Source of the DNA: Bryobacterales bacterium
GTDB taxonomy: Bacteria; Acidobacteriota; Terriglobia; Bryobacterales; Bryobacteraceae
Assembly (NCBI GenBank): GCA_025350625.1
Contig: JANXXL010000247.1
Span: 1-42,998, forward strand
Direction of reading: 5' to 3'
Length of the DNA: 42,998 bases
Shown here one piece after another: positions 4,417 to 41,528 of the stretch (position 1 is its first letter; the number at the start of each line of letters is the position of its first letter). The notes beneath the pieces are model-generated. The model saw nothing but the letters and a program-made list of their open reading frames with translations. It searched no databases and was not told the DNA's origin. Both the position numbers and the translations under genes were made by a program.

Positions 4417-5022
4417 ATGCGTAACGCACTGCGAATCGCCATCGGAATGCTCGGCGTCACCATCCTGTTACCGCTATCCGCCCAGACCAGCAAGCCAACC
4501 TGCAACAAGTGTGCGGCCACCTATGTGCCAGCCGAAGAGTTGGAAGCTTATTTGAAGCGCGCCGTAGGCGTCGCCGTCGCCGATCAGCAAGTTCGCGCGC
4601 TCAGCGTCGGCAAGACCAACGTCGACATAGCCGTGGTCTATCGCGGCAAAATCTCGGCCCCCGTCAAGCAGAGTGTCGCCGAGCATGACAAGGTCAGCGA
4701 GGTGTACCACATCATCGATGGCACGGCCACCCTCATGACCGGGCCCGACATCGTGGATCTGATTCCGCGACCGGCGGATGACCGCGCCGTGCGCCTGCTC
4801 AACGGACCCGGCGGCAACGGCGCCTCCATCCGCAACGGCGTCACCTACCAGCTAAAGGCCGGCGATGTGGTGGTGATTCCCGCGGGCACCGGACATCTTT
4901 TCACCCGCATCGACGATCATATTCGCTACCTGATGGTCCGCCTCGATCCCGATAAGATCGCCCCTCTCAAGGATGAAGCGGCGTCCAAGGTCGATCTGCA
5001 AACTGGCTTCAAATCCAGGTAA
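4417..5022 (+). CDS. Secreted cupin-domain protein
   Basis: 201 residues: signal peptide (MRNALRIAIGMLGVTILLPLSAQ), a short CNKC segment just after cleavage, and a single cupin barrel. The cupin motifs are visible as HDKVSEVYHIIDGTATLMTG and, in the second half, LKAGDVVVIPAGTGHLF with a metal-type histidine. An in-frame GTG lies at 4411, but ATG 4417 is preferred because the ribosome binding site AAGAAGGA (4403-4410) abuts the GTG and is correctly spaced from the ATG. A TATACT at 4372-4377 could be its -10 box. OsmC follows 8 bases later, so the two may be co-transcribed. Enzymatic function is not predictable from the cupin fold. Confidence 0.8.
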   Translation: MRNALRIAIGMLGVTILLPLSAQTSKPTCNKCAATYVPAEELEAYLKRAVGVAVADQQVRALSVGKTNVDIAVVYRGKISAPVKQSVAEHDKVSEVYHIIDGTATLMTGPDIVDLIPRPADDRAVRLLNGPGGNGASIRNGVTYQLKAGDVVVIPAGTGHLFTRIDDHIRYLMVRLDPDKIAPLKDEAASKVDLQTGFKSR

Positions 5023-5030
5023 AAATCGCC

Positions 5031-5456
5031 ATGAAACGATCCGCACAAGCGAAATGGCAAGGCGACTTGAAGAGTGGTTCGGGTACCATCTCGACAGCCA
5101 GCGGCACGCTCGCGAGCACGCCCTATTCATTCCATAGCCGCTTTGAGCAGGGCGTCGGTACCAATCCCGAAGAGCTGCTGGCTGCCGCGCACGCCGGATG
5201 CTTCACCATGGCTCTGTCGGCGCAACTGGCACAAGCGGGCCTCAAAGCCGAGAGTCTCGAAACCTCCTGCACCATCACAATCGAACAGAAAGACGGAGCC
5301 TTCGCCATCACCGAAAGCCACCTCGAATTAAAGGCCAAGGTGCCCGGCGCTAGCGCGGAGGCATTCGATCAAGCGACCAAGGCCGCTAAGACTGGGTGTC
5401 CGGTCTCCAAGCTGTTCAACACCAGCATCACTCTCGACGCCCACTTGGAAGCTTAG
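5031..5456 (+). CDS. osmC: OsmC-family thiol peroxidase
   Basis: 141 residues, the normal length for OsmC/Ohr proteins that reduce organic hydroperoxides with two cysteines. The catalytic pair is visible: Cys57 in [10 protein letters not shown] and Cys123 in [10 protein letters not shown]. The N-terminal [15 protein letters not shown] and the YSFHSRF segment are typical of the OsmC branch rather than Ohr. It follows the secreted cupin gene closely and overlaps the convergent exporter gene by 29 bases. Proximity to bshA (bacillithiol) fits a thiol/oxidative-stress theme, but that is only a suggestion. Confidence 0.93.
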
Positions 5457-26342: not shown

Positions 26343-26910
26343 GCTTCACGCGGTAGTGTACCAGTTTGTTTTTTGATAATTATTCAGTGAACGCTATTTC
26401 GTATTGTTCTCATGACGGAGCCCACGGACCTTCAACATCAGGAATACGGCAGCGCTCCACGCTGCGATTAGCAACGAAAATCCGCAAATTGAGGCGATCG
26501 AAACTGCACCAGCAATCCCCAGTGGTGCCCTCAATCTAATTACGATGGGGAGACCAATTGCCTCTGCTGGCTCTTGGAGGCTATCGAGCCACATGACATT
26601 GTCGATGGCTGTTGGCCACTGCTTTGTGACCGCCAGGTAGAAAAAGGTCCAAAGGATTAATTCGATGGACGCGCCAACCGCAACTGAGATGATTAGATCA
26701 CGCCTCCAGTTACGAGCCATACGTGGCACAATGCTATCATTCCTAGCCGTTGAAGCGGGACTCAGCTTGCCAGTAATGCGATCTCTTCAAGGGACCATAC
26801 ATGATCAGACACCCGCGCTTCCACGGAGGGCGTGACGCGAAGGCTCTTGTGGAAACAAGCAATATTGGGGTGCATCATCTCAATTGCGACAACAGCGTTA
26901 TGCTTCACGC
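26343..26910. mobile_element. Inserted segment with one IS1-like end, flanked by a 9-bp direct repeat
   Basis: GCTTCACGC occurs at 26343-26351 and again at 26902-26910. Immediately after the first copy begins a 24-base sequence, GGTAGTGTACCAGTTTG..., that matches the terminal repeat of the mobile element at 38893 in 20 of 24 positions. Removing 26352-26910 restores a compact junction between the Kir gene and pyk. The opposite end just before 26902 shows no recognisable terminal repeat, and no transposase gene lies inside, so this is at best a non-autonomous or decayed relative. The 9-bp repeat alone could be chance. Confidence 0.45.
26394..26729 (-). CDS. Small membrane protein of unknown function inside the inserted segment
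   Basis: 111 residues from GTG 26729 (or 108 from ATG 26720). Two strong hydrophobic segments are visible: LIISVAVGASIELILWTFFYLAV and LGIAGAVSIASICGFSLLIAAWSAAVFLML, so a two-helix membrane protein is likely. Base composition is visibly lower in GC than flanking genes. Its 3' end points toward, and stops 18 bases from, the IS-like end at 26352-26375. That is the same orientation as the membrane-protein gene in the complete element at 41122, although the two proteins are not similar in sequence. Cargo of a mobile element is therefore suspected. Confidence 0.55.
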   Translation of the reverse strand: MPRMARNWRRDLIISVAVGASIELILWTFFYLAVTKQWPTAIDNVMWLDSLQEPAEAIGLPIVIRLRAPLGIAGAVSIASICGFSLLIAAWSAAVFLMLKVRGLRHENNTK

Positions 26911-38833: not shown

Positions 38834-38892
38834 CCGGCTTTTTCTGCTGCATGCTCAAATGGACCCACTACCGCATTCTCGCCCGGTTTGAC

Positions 38893-38916
38893 GGTAGTGT
38901 ATCAGTTTGAATTTTC
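38893..38916 (+). repeat. Left terminal inverted repeat of the insertion element
   Basis: 24 bases starting GGTAGTG, an exact reverse complement of 41471-41494. The stop codon of the transposase (38902-38904) lies inside it, so the gene and the end have been kept as one unit. Confidence 0.95.
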
Positions 38917-39747
38917 ATAAGCGTCTATCATTTCCACGATGTCTGTGATTTCCCAAAGCCGAGTATCCACACCAGCGGCCATTGCGGGCGAGCAGCGAAG
39001 CGTTTTATGGACTCGCGCGAAATTGTAGTACATCAGGAACAACGCGACTGATGCGGCGTGATTCTCGATCTTCTTTGAAAAACCATTGGTGAGCCGAGTA
39101 AAGCGGCGCATTCCCATGCGAAGCGTGAGGTTTGCGCGTTCTATGTAACTCGTGGAGACATGCTCCAAATCTGGATAGCCGACGATGGCTTTCTTTTCGC
39201 ATCCAATGCAGTCTGCGGGGCTGTAGCGCTTCTGTCCTTCGACCGGATTGGTGTAGACCTTGTGGAGCATCGCGTAGTCCACTTCGCCCCTGAATGCGTG
39301 CTCGACGGCTTTCAGGTACGCTGGCAGCGAGTCGCTGGTCAATTGGATTCGATCCGCTAGGCGATCCGCCAAGTCGGCAACGAACATGCGGGCGGTAACG
39401 CCATCACGGGGACCGATAATCCAGCACGGAATTAACTTGGAATCGGCGTCGATTGCGGCCCATGTCCAAGTATCTCCCGCACCCGGATGCTTGGCCGCTA
39501 TTTCAGGGGTAATGTTCTTGGCCTTCGCATAACAGAAGCTCCAGCACTCGTCGATTTGAACGCGCTTGCAATTCAAATTCCGCATGACCCGATCTTGGTA
39601 TTCCGAGCACGCCGCTCCAGCATCTACGGCCAGTTTCACAACCGTGTTGATCGCCACTCCCGTCATCCGGCTAGTGGATCGGAGTGAGTTTCCCTCGACC
39701 AGAGAACTGATGATTTGGCAGCGCTTAATGGAATCTAGCCGGTTCAT
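38902..39747 (-). CDS. IS1-type DDE transposase
   Basis: 281 residues from ATG 39747. The N-terminal helix-turn-helix (MNRLDSIKRCQIISSLVEGN, then SLRSTSRMTGVAINTVVKL) is followed by the catalytic region: Asp in VQIDECWSFCYAK, Asp in QLTSDSLPAYLKAVE and Glu in STSYIERANLTLRMGMRRFTRL. The C-terminal HKTLRCSPAMAAGV is also typical of this IS1-like group. The frame is open a further 222 bases upstream, but the family start and a promoter seven bases ahead favour ATG 39747. It ends inside the left inverted repeat. Confidence 0.93.
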   Translation of the reverse strand: MNRLDSIKRCQIISSLVEGNSLRSTSRMTGVAINTVVKLAVDAGAACSEYQDRVMRNLNCKRVQIDECWSFCYAKAKNITPEIAAKHPGAGDTWTWAAIDADSKLIPCWIIGPRDGVTARMFVADLADRLADRIQLTSDSLPAYLKAVEHAFRGEVDYAMLHKVYTNPVEGQKRYSPADCIGCEKKAIVGYPDLEHVSTSYIERANLTLRMGMRRFTRLTNGFSKKIENHAASVALFLMYYNFARVHKTLRCSPAMAAGVDTRLWEITDIVEMIDAYENSN

Positions 39748-39754
39748 ACTGACT

Positions 39755-39783
39755 ATTGTACTTGAGCGGATAGGCTGTGTCAA
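39755..39783 (-). promoter_or_regulatory. Transposase promoter, leaderless
   Basis: On the minus strand TTGACA (39783-39778), exactly 17 bases, and TACAAT (39760-39755) form a near-consensus sigma70 promoter. The ATG begins seven bases beyond the -10 box, so transcription should start at or next to the start codon, and translation would use no Shine-Dalgarno. Confidence 0.75.
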
Positions 39784-39794
39784 TCCTTTTCTCC

Positions 39795-39879
39795 AAGCAT
39801 GCAATTTATATTGATGCTTGCATTGTGCACGTTTTACAGGTACTATGCAAGCAGAATTAGTCAGAAAGGATGCTTGCAT
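39795..39879. promoter_or_regulatory. Cargo-gene promoter with three TGCTTGCAT operator-like copies
   Basis: TTGCAT (39818-39823), 17 bases and TACTAT (39841-39846) form a promoter for the P63C gene. The 9-mer TGCTTGCAT occurs at 39815-39823, inverted at 39845-39853 and again at 39871-39879, touching the -35 box, the -10/+1 region and the start codon. A further bulged inverted repeat AAGCAT(G)CAAT / ATTGATGCTT spans 39795-39819. The layout suggests repression by a protein binding this site. Confidence 0.6.
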
Positions 39880-40882
39880 GAAAAAAGTTGAAGTGACGGG
39901 ACGGGCAAAGGGTGGGCTGAAAAGGGCACAGTTGCTATCCCCTAAAGAGCGTCGGGAAATTGCGGCCAAGGGGGCAGCGGCACGCTGGGGACTTCAGGCT
40001 ACACACAAAGGCAGTTTTAAGCAGGAGTTTGGAACGGATGTAGAATGCTACGTTCTCAATGACGCACAGAAAACGGCGGTTATCAGTCAAACGGGGATGG
40101 CCCGGGCGCTGGGAATGTCCGCTCGGGGCAGCTCTTTACCCAGCTTTCTGGCGACGAAAGCGATGTCCGCTAGCGTGAGCGGCGAACTACAGGAAAAGCT
40201 AGCTAACCCAGTTAAGTTTCAATGGGCTAACGTCGGCGGTGGGGTGCCGCCAGCAAACGTCCACGGGTTCGATGCCACACTCCTGGTGGACGTCTGCAAA
40301 GCGGTCGTCAGCGCGGAGGCTGACGGGAAGCTTAGCCAACGGCAAGCCAATATAGCGAAGCAGGCTCACATCATCCTCGGAGCTTCTGCCAAAGCCGGGA
40401 TCAAGGGCCTTGTTTACGCGCTGGCTGGTTACAACCCCACCGCGCAGGAAGTCATCGAGGCTTTCAAGCTGTACGTGCGCGAAGAGGCGAAAAAGTATGA
40501 GCGCGAGTTTCCGAGTGAACTCTATCTAGAATGGCATCGCCTGTACGATATTCCAATTCCGGACCGGGGCAAGCCGTGGCACTTTAAACATTTGACGGTA
40601 AAGCACGTTTATTATCCTCTAGCCAAGAGCAGCGGAAAACTTCTGGAGCTTCTTAGGGCGGTAAAGGCAAAGGATGGTGACATGCGCAAAAAACTCTTCC
40701 AGTTTCTAAATGACGTCGGCGCACGTGCATTGAGGATGCAACTAGGAAGGGTATTGGAGATGGCTGAATCGTCGCCGGATAAGAGAACCTATGAAGCAAA
40801 GATCGTTGAGCGATTTGGGGGGCAGCGGGAATTGGATCTAAATATTCCTACTTCTTCCAGCGAGATTGAGCTGCCTTCTTAG
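39878..40882 (+). CDS. P63C-domain protein (cargo of the insertion element)
   Basis: 334 residues. ATG 39878 follows AGAAAGGA at seven bases. Residues 11-37 form a basic motif (KGGLKRAQLLSPKERREIAA, ending RW) also found in the next gene. The middle has a conserved-looking CYVLNDAQKTAVISQTGMARALGM. The C-terminal third (FPSELYLEWHRLYDIPIPDR, GKPWHFKHLTVKHVYYPLA, FLNDVGARALRMQLGRVLEM) matches the P63C domain known from phage- and island-encoded proteins of unknown function. It may bind nucleic acid and could autoregulate its promoter. Lower GC than chromosomal neighbours. Confidence 0.8.
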   Translation: MKKVEVTGRAKGGLKRAQLLSPKERREIAAKGAAARWGLQATHKGSFKQEFGTDVECYVLNDAQKTAVISQTGMARALGMSARGSSLPSFLATKAMSASVSGELQEKLANPVKFQWANVGGGVPPANVHGFDATLLVDVCKAVVSAEADGKLSQRQANIAKQAHIILGASAKAGIKGLVYALAGYNPTAQEVIEAFKLYVREEAKKYEREFPSELYLEWHRLYDIPIPDRGKPWHFKHLTVKHVYYPLAKSSGKLLELLRAVKAKDGDMRKKLFQFLNDVGARALRMQLGRVLEMAESSPDKRTYEAKIVERFGGQRELDLNIPTSSSEIELPS

Positions 40883-41093
40883 CAATCGCCTTTCGTCTAG
40901 CTGGTGACAGGGCAGCAGCTCTGGCCGCTCCGCCCTTAGCGCCGCCCAGCTTGCCCAGTGCGACAGCAGCCGGATTCTTTCCTGCGTTCTGATCGTCCAA
41001 AGGTTCGCCGGTCAACTTTTCGCCGATTAGCTTCTCGACTGTGCGACGACCCACGGTTGCGAAGTCGTGATCCTTGCTTGAACGGCTAGGCAT
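40848..41093 (-). CDS. Small basic protein with KGG-LSP-RW motif (cargo)
   Basis: 81 residues, overlapping the 3' end of the P63C gene by 35 bases in convergent orientation. The C-terminal half (residues 53-79, KGGAARAAALSPARRKAIAK ending SRW) is the same motif, of the same 27-residue length, as residues 11-37 of the P63C protein. The preceding NPAAVALGKLGG is often seen before it in small uncharacterised basic proteins. A nucleic-acid-binding role is likely from charge only. ATG 41093 lies within an inverted repeat (41089-41107). Confidence 0.65.
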   Translation of the reverse strand: MPSRSSKDHDFATVGRRTVEKLIGEKLTGEPLDDQNAGKNPAAVALGKLGGAKGGAARAAALSPARRKAIAKKAAQSRWKK

Positions 41094-41107
41094 GATATGA
41101 TTATGCC
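41089..41107. repeat. Inverted repeat between divergent cargo genes
   Basis: GGCATGAT and ATTATGCC arms (one mismatch) with a three-base centre span the start codon of the minus-strand cargo gene. They lie just ahead of the plus-strand membrane-protein gene. A regulatory site is possible. Confidence 0.35.
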
Positions 41108-41121
41108 ATGGGCGTCAACTA

Positions 41122-41466
41122 ATGGGCCATCGCCGCAACATGGAGAAGTTCATCGACGAATCCCGCGCCAGACAACGGAATATCGTTTTCCCGGACACCG
41201 TCCGAAACGGACGCTCCGTAGATGCTTTTCTATGGAATGGCTCTCCCAATCCCCCACTTATTCAGAAGATTGTGGCCTGGATGTTTGGCTTGTTCTTCTT
41301 GGCCCTTACTGCATTGGGCTTATTCGCAATGGTTCTCGGGGCACATCGAGGCATAGTCTTCGGTGACCGGGTAGCTTGGATCTTAGCTACGCTTCCAATC
41401 GCTGTCGTTTGCGCTTACGTCGGAATTAGAATCTTTCGCAACGGATTTGCAAGACGCAGATTTTAG
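41122..41466 (+). CDS. Small membrane protein (cargo of the insertion element)
   Basis: 114 residues from ATG 41122 (or 108 from ATG 41140). A charged N-terminus of about 50 residues is followed by two hydrophobic helices (IVAWMFGLFFLALTALGLFAMVL and VAWILATLPIAVVCAYVGIRIF) and a basic tail. Its stop is four bases from the right inverted repeat. I do not recognise the family. It is the last cargo gene and is placed like the membrane-protein gene at 26394 relative to its IS-like end. Confidence 0.6.
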   Translation: MGHRRNMEKFIDESRARQRNIVFPDTVRNGRSVDAFLWNGSPNPPLIQKIVAWMFGLFFLALTALGLFAMVLGAHRGIVFGDRVAWILATLPIAVVCAYVGIRIFRNGFARRRF

Positions 41467-41470
41467 CGCT

Positions 41471-41494
41471 GAAAATTCAAACTGATACACTACC
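41471..41494 (-). repeat. Right terminal inverted repeat of the insertion element
   Basis: 24 bases ending ...CACTACC, perfect reverse complement of the left repeat. The 8-bp target duplication GGTTTGAC follows at once. Confidence 0.95.
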
Positions 41495-41497
41495 GGT

Positions 41498-41528
41498 TTG
41501 ACAGCCATCTACATGGGTGTGCTATCCT
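41498..41528 (+). promoter_or_regulatory. Probable promoter of the rpsL-rpsG-fusA operon, -35 overlapping the IS target site
   Basis: TTGACA (41498-41503) and an extended -10 TGCTATCCT (41520-41528; TATCCT at 41523) with a 19-base spacer lie upstream of rpsL. Bases 41498-41502 are part of the target duplication, so the insertion left this -35 box intact and replaced only the sequence upstream of it with the AT-rich element end. The long spacer makes this call moderate. Confidence 0.45.

Follow-up and report, generated by a model that had tools for sequence, protein, structure and literature searches.

A complete IS1-related cargo transposon in a Bryobacterales genome, member of a group that spans several phyla, with a probable second backbone gene

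What kind of mobile element encloses an IS1-type transposase gene and three further genes within one pair of inverted repeats, and are all three of them cargo? The question is raised by contig JANXXL010000247.1 of a Bryobacterales bacterium (assembly GCA_025350625.1), of which the 42,998 nucleotides analyzed are called the window here. The element spans 2,602 bp (38893 to 41494) and is bounded by two identical, perfect 25-bp terminal inverted repeats (TIRs; left, 38893 to 38917, plus strand; right, 41470 to 41494, minus strand) and by an 8-bp target-site duplication, GGTTTGAC (38885 to 38892 and 41495 to 41502). From left to right it encodes a transposase (minus strand), a P63C-domain protein (plus), an 81-amino-acid (aa) basic protein (minus), and a membrane-type open reading frame (ORF) of 114 aa (plus). 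It belongs, as a complete copy, to an IS1-related group of small cargo transposons that spans several phyla. Comparison of the relatives makes it likely that the group has a two-gene backbone, consisting of a single-ORF DDE transposase and a basic regulator with a KGG..RW domain, which carries exchangeable and often defense-type cargo.

The first-pass annotation had described a complete IS1-type element bearing cargo, and this is borne out by the TIRs, the 8-bp duplication, and the match of the transposase to Pfam DDE_Tnp_IS1 (PF03400; E = 2.9e-8, 34.6 bits against a cutoff of 24.1). The repeats and the duplication are as perfect as had been reported, but the TIR length is 25 bp rather than 24 bp. 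Positions 38892 to 38917 and 41470 to 41495 are complementary over 26 of 26 bp, and 25 bp belong to the TIR proper once the duplication is set at its coordinates. The end motif GGTAGTGnnTCAGTTTGA, with up to three mismatches allowed, has four matches in the window against 0.19 expected, a number reached in none of 100 shuffles. The transposase gene (38902 to 39747, minus strand; 281 aa, with the ATG placed at 39747 on the basis of alignment and promoter spacing) ends, as had also been noted, in a TGA stop codon inside the left TIR.

Members of the IS1 family normally have inverted ends starting with GGT and duplicate 8 to 9 bp of target, and single-ORF members exist within the family. The window element, with its DDE_Tnp_IS1 domain, GGT-starting ends, and 8-bp duplication, resembles these single-ORF, ISMhu11-like members, and three of its plasmid relatives are annotated as “IS1 family transposase.” It is unlike IS1 in other respects. 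The match to the NCBIfam IS1 equivalog (E = 4.8e-14, 52.8 bits) lies under the cutoff of 100, the transposase is one ORF of 281 aa as opposed to the 199 positions of that model, and neither the window nor the aligned relatives have the InsA/InsB-type pair of ORFs joined by a frameshift. The element also exceeds the 0.7 to 1.2 kb of the family, as do all 91 delimited elements of the group (2.0 to 4.7 kb), and has a conserved second gene. No IS1595 model was found among the Pfam and NCBIfam matches of the transposase at an E value of ≤1, which places it outside the IS1595 family.

Relatives were collected in two sets. Searches of 257 genomes of the order gave basic-protein matches in 41 (E ≤ 1e-8) and transposase matches in 42 (E ≤ 1e-60), and most of the 20 basic-protein places fetched had like ends or an adjoining transposase, with differing cargo. 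A complete element was defined as a transposase with inverted ends and an 8-bp duplication with at most one mismatch; 39 of these were delimited in 111 fetched, partly overlapping regions (L084, L130, and L131 being added by hand). A transposase-alignment scan of named genomes found at least 573 relatives, of which the best 80 were kept; by title these come from Acidobacteria, Nitrospirae, Omnitrophota, Planctomycetes, Verrucomicrobia, Proteobacteria, Chloroflexi, and others. Complete elements were found in 57 of these 80 loci, compared to 1 of 80 in a shifted-duplication control. Loci with an end that was not found (because of contig ends, decay, or short flanks; 23 of the 80 named records) were excluded from element counts. 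Five of the 57 named elements are identical to order-set elements, which gives a joint set of 91 distinct elements from several phyla. None is shorter than 2.0 kb, and there is no minimal insertion sequence (IS) among the 39 of the order, so the earlier picture of one unusually cargo-rich element within a group of short ISs does not hold. Seven plasmid records had a transposase match; complete elements are present in three of the four that were opened, on plasmids of Acidiphilium, Mesorhizobium, and Hoeflea. Seven IS1-type elements with distant transposases (L151, L155, L162, L165, L166, L168, and L169) have other end sequences, 8-bp duplications, and other ORFs.

The nearest relative, L055, lies in another genus and is 73% identical in DNA over 2.2 kb. 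It shares the transposase, P63C, and basic genes, all inside the repeats and with a duplication of its own, but the membrane gene is absent. Nonsynonymous divergence (dN) from the window is 0.12 to 0.13 in the three shared genes alike, and synonymous divergence (dS) reaches 1.9 in the basic gene; in the other two it was not computable and was taken as saturated. The basic gene is under purifying selection (dN/dS, or omega, of 0.063). Capture of neighboring genes at the window locus by an ordinary IS1-type element would fit the single copy with this P63C and membrane gene cargo in the genome's own assembly. We consider such chance capture extremely improbable and reject it, as it is contradicted by relatives such as L055, where the transposase-P63C-basic unit stands at another site with another duplication in another genus, and by P63C genes in 8 of the 91 elements. 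The search for further copies that had been proposed as a check showed like ends with different duplications in relatives, so the repeats are not confined to the window. Of the copies in the same assembly, only that of the window was found with this cargo; L083 has a different cargo, and L058 and L059 are remnants.

The basic gene (40848 to 41093, minus strand) had been counted as part of a three-gene cargo. The P63C gene and the membrane gene are indeed the variable cargo of the window element, but the basic protein is encoded in 83 of the 91 distinct elements, next to varied cargo, and is better described as a backbone gene. A profile built from order elements with the window protein as the seed matched 32 of the 39 order elements and nothing in 259 kb of flanks (E ≤ 1). 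The same profile matched 56 of the 57 named elements and one place in 603 kb of flanks; with the five order-set duplicates left out, the count among elements not used for the profile is 51 of 52. The match in L267 is short and weaker, and L272 lacks the protein. Seven order elements without it have transposases 41 to 47% identical to that of the window, a range that includes L163, which has it. When the search was reversed, the profile matched in 35 of 297 genomes of the phylum, with 48 places listed. A transposase was present within the fetched flanks of 17 of the 20 places fetched, and 11 of the 20 had an element with TIRs and duplication, two of which are probably L205 and L259 and thus in the counts above.

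The basic gene lies on the 5′ side of the transposase gene in 83 of 83 elements, on the same strand in 79, and its start is 55 to 106 bp from the TIR tip in 52. It adjoins and diverges from the transposase gene in four elements; in the variant layout of L116, L122, L130, and L131, it heads an operon, which in L116 ends in a PemK/MazF toxin gene. Transposase and basic-protein distances are correlated over 82 elements (Mantel r = 0.38, 0 of 999 permutations). Within the 16 HigA-bearing elements, the correlation between these two proteins is 0.49 (0/999), compared to 0.11 between transposase and HigA (202/999) and 0.14 between basic protein and HigA (125/999). Judged by these distances, the basic protein is part of the transposition unit and follows the transposase and not the HigA cargo. 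The adjacency of the basic gene to P63C and HigBA modules could suggest that it is true cargo, an addiction-module part serving as the antitoxin of P63C or of other cargo. This is improbable, and we have rejected it: the protein accompanies many unrelated cargoes, it co-diverges with the transposase rather than with HigA, and the HigBA-bearing elements already have an antitoxin of the HigA type.

The upstream regions of the two backbone genes suggest what the basic protein may do. Transposase upstream regions contain strong sigma-70-like promoters (93% with a score of ≥9, compared to 17% in shuffles), most of them a few bases before the start, and basic-gene promoters are weaker (29% versus 5%), most of the passing ones lying 6 bp from the start codon. 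A word count placed ATGCTTG and its neighbors among the top words of the transposase upstream regions. ATGCTTG is found in 51 of 80 such regions, or 9.3 per kb compared to 0.081 per kb in flanks, and the dyad TGCTTGA-N4-TCAAGCA with up to two mismatches in 21 of 80, or 3.1 per kb compared to 0.0025 per kb. In the window, the putative transposase promoter (39755 to 39783, minus strand; TTGACA-N17-TACAAT, with 7 bp between the −10 box and the ATG) has an CCGCTCAAG half-operator in its spacer. The interval before the P63C gene holds four TGCTTG sites on alternating strands (39794 to 39876), a putative operator directly upstream of the ATG at 39878. Three or more TGCTTG sites precede six of the eight transposon P63C genes. 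In L184-type elements, altered half-sites such as TGCGAA occur at a like place. Upstream of P63C in L249, L315, L318, L374, and L378, TGCTTG is replaced by other repeated words (TGCTGGCA, TTACATAA, GCACGTAA, and TACTATAA), as if operator specificity had shifted.

The P63C protein (39878 to 40882, plus strand; 334 aa) has at its N terminus a KGG..RW motif region like that of the basic protein. Outside these transposons, P63C genes with upstream TGCTTG sites are found in phages of Salmonella, E. coli, Gordonia, Burkholderia, Pseudomonas, and Paracoccus. In ten phage loci, TGCTTG occurs at 13.3 per kb upstream compared to 0.64, with two or more sites in seven loci; two of the three proteins from the loci without TGCTTG lack the N-terminal KGG..RW domain. 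A larger collection of viral P63C loci, 77 of 80 of which had enough upstream sequence, was reduced to 58 nonredundant loci, and here the density was 10.8 per kb upstream versus 0.74 elsewhere. Two or more sites precede the gene in 35 of the 55 loci whose protein has the domain and in none of the 3 whose protein lacks it (Fisher P = 0.057). The presence of a site is also associated with a pattern in the second helix of the domain. P63C proteins with the pattern R..I[AS] in this helix have the site in 35 of 39 cases compared to 6 of 19 others (P = 1.2e-5), and basic proteins with it have the site in the transposase promoter in 51 of 66 cases compared to 5 of 14 (P = 0.0038), neither test being corrected for relatedness.

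From these associations we propose the following mechanism. The transposase gene occupies one end of the element, here with its stop codon in the TIR, and the basic gene lies on its 5′ side, usually near the other end. The transposase would move everything between the TIRs. The KGG..RW domain would bind TGCTTG half-sites, and the basic protein would thereby occupy TGCTTG dyads in the promoter-bearing stretch that separates transposase and cargo and, less often, sites near its own promoter beside the TIR. Such binding may repress or time the expression of transposase and cargo, and the P63C protein, with the same domain, probably regulates its own promoter by way of the four TGCTTG sites that precede its gene. 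Taken at its broadest, this reading describes phylum-crossing, defense-carrying transposons with a transposase and a KGG..RW repressor, in which KGG..RW would be an undescribed DNA-binding domain common to P63C proteins of temperate phages and the operator half-site would change with the second helix; we regard this broad form as having about even chances of being right.

Several observations weigh against the proposed regulation. TGCTTG is missing from 24 of the 80 transposase upstream regions, only 8 of the 83 regions upstream of the basic gene contain ATGCTTG, and in the window the transposase promoter has only the half-operator in its spacer while the match of the basic-gene promoter is weak. 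Among P63C loci, those of transposons L249 and L264 and of three phages have no TGCTTG, although the protein of one of these phages (L299) has the KGG..RW domain, and 14 of the 55 viral loci with the domain have no site. The helix-2 tests are uncorrected for phylogeny, the pattern was picked after the P63C data had been seen, and it is crude enough to miss variants such as RLKEIS and RKTEIA. The profile search did not find the basic protein in L272 or in the seven elements with distant transposases, and neither fold comparison nor profile and sequence search of solved structures gave a significant match for it in the PDB. Its predicted structure consists of helices and has a low predicted template modeling score (pTM, 0.39), and because of this low score and the lack of a PDB match, the term “DNA-binding” rests on sequence association for this protein.

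A basic, helical protein that is closely paired with the transposase and whose gene in many elements has a fixed place about 65 bp inside one TIR could instead be a transposition accessory (DNA bending, nucleoid-like, or target directing), with the TGCTTG sites belonging to another factor; its homolog on a Mesorhizobium loti plasmid was deposited as “histone H1.” This alternative is possible, if distinctly less probable than a transcriptional regulator, as the KGG..RW domain and TGCTTG sites also occur together at phage P63C genes and as ATGCTTG, common in transposase promoters, is seldom found at the basic gene beside the TIR.

With the basic gene counted as backbone, the cargo comes down in the window to two genes, both of which had been correctly recognized, as had the basic protein itself. 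The P63C gene matches PF10546 (E = 3.1e-10, 41.0 bits, above the cutoff of 26.1) and phrog_2384 (3.6e-81), which identifies its product as a P63C-domain protein. The structure model of this protein is of moderate quality (predicted local distance difference test [pLDDT] of 70) and has no significant PDB fold match; a profile search of solved structures gave one match with an E value of 0.54, taken as chance. In phages, the P63C gene directly follows a repressor or regulator gene in 4 of the 10 loci (ST104, SI8, Midgardsormr38, and Kuwabara) and lies near the integrase or arc region in four others. The place directly after a phage repressor is usual for accessory genes expressed during lysogeny; therefore, the P63C protein is most likely a defense or superinfection exclusion protein, a reading against which it counts that gene location is its sole basis. 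The 114-aa membrane-type ORF (41122 to 41466, plus strand), between the basic gene and the right end, has no family match above the cutoff. The suggestion of a defense, addiction, or regulatory module agrees with the cargo of many relatives, but PADLOC has no model that matches the window P63C or membrane protein or either of the other two window proteins.

In the relatives, 79 of 109 cargo ORFs between transposase and basic gene are antiparallel to the transposase gene. A cargo census covered 125 ORFs (117 of 131 ORFs of ≥130 aa plus eight shorter HigB ORFs) and left out 10 of the third genes that accompany HigBA, a fragment, and three further ORFs. By sequence cluster, the recurrent cargo consists of HigA/M78-type regulators (18 elements), a third gene beside them (14), HigB (8, as separate ORFs), P63C, an SDH-type protease (5), and a family with weak proteasome matches (5). 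Other cargo includes an N6-methylase with a PIN toxin (L068), RmrA (L083), PemK/MazF (L116), a Schlafen-type protein (L127), and DUF3800 (L080), and single census matches were to BglII, MT-A70, dCTP deaminase, and SocA/Panacea. Many cargo ORFs of relatives match nothing in these searches, and some short ones may not be genes. The HigA/M78 cargo matches the PADLOC model PD-Lambda-2_B, with an E value of 5.8e-42 for L066 and 15 of 125 cargo ORFs at 1e-8. The relatives' cargo thus resembles the PD-Lambda-2 antiphage system in its B component, in many cases accompanied by a HigB-like toxin and a third gene; it is unlike that three-component system in that the toxins and third genes of L066, L236, and L261 have no PD-Lambda-2 match.

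Tn7-like machinery consists of several transposition proteins. Elements of that type carry defense cargo, including ImmA, PIN, and dCTPase genes (PMC8649781), and the window group, with one transposase and 2 to 5 kb, shares with them the defense cargo. Toxin-antitoxin genes inside the transposon are likewise shared with the Tn3-family transposons of PMC7157771, for which a regulatory role of the pair in transposition is proposed; there the transposase is another one and the constant partner is the toxin-antitoxin pair, compared to a KGG..RW protein in the window group. Similar in organization are the transporter IS (tIS), defined in PMC9330008 and PMC3129680 as one-transposase elements with passenger genes between the TIRs. 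The window element likewise has passenger genes unrelated to transposition between its TIRs and so qualifies as a tIS. It differs from IS1595-family tIS in its transposase family, its conserved helper gene (83/91), and its cargo of defense and toxin-antitoxin type. A literature search, mostly outside subscription journals, turned up no account of an IS1-type element carrying this helper gene or cargo of these kinds. If the proposal is right, these elements are a very small vehicle for antiphage and toxin-antitoxin type genes, mostly in environmental bacteria of several phyla. The group is recognizable by its ends and helper gene and could therefore be used to find new defense genes by their place. 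The proposal also makes a prediction that can be put to the test, for the P63C domain as well as for a family of small proteins that is widespread and for which no known function was found.

A few features remain at the locus itself. The basic gene is preceded, 6 bp before its start, by the −10-like sequence CATAAT (41100 to 41105, minus strand), and the whole promoter match has a score of 8 compared to a shuffled mean of 7.3. A corresponding site without the element (L281) was found in genome G076 of the same genus. It matches the right flank of the window to within 16 bp of the duplication, and just before this match, with no element between, it has 23 bp of the left flank (38850 to 38872); the remaining left flank is unmatched. 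A second TIR-like end lies within these 23 bp, at 38855 to 38872, 20 bp left of the element, and may be left over from an older element at this site; the copy of 38850 to 38872 in L281 adjoins a small membrane-protein-like ORF. A further TIR-like match, with two mismatches, is found in the window at 26352 to 26369.

Reduced elements were also observed. One remnant in the same genome (L058, 2700 to 3563, contig C346) has a right end, a broken basic gene, and as cargo in the right slot another ORF, which we take to be DUF1311/LprI-like; the fetched stretch contains no transposase match. The other (L059, 2709 to 3532, contig C157) is 824 bp long, with ends, the duplication GTCTATTC, and only a transposase fragment, and resembles a miniature inverted-repeat transposable element derived from the group. 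L069 contains a nonautonomous element of 956 bp (4493 to 5448) that has a duplication with one mismatch and encloses, besides a fragment of the transposase, a membrane-type ORF and a match to the basic protein.

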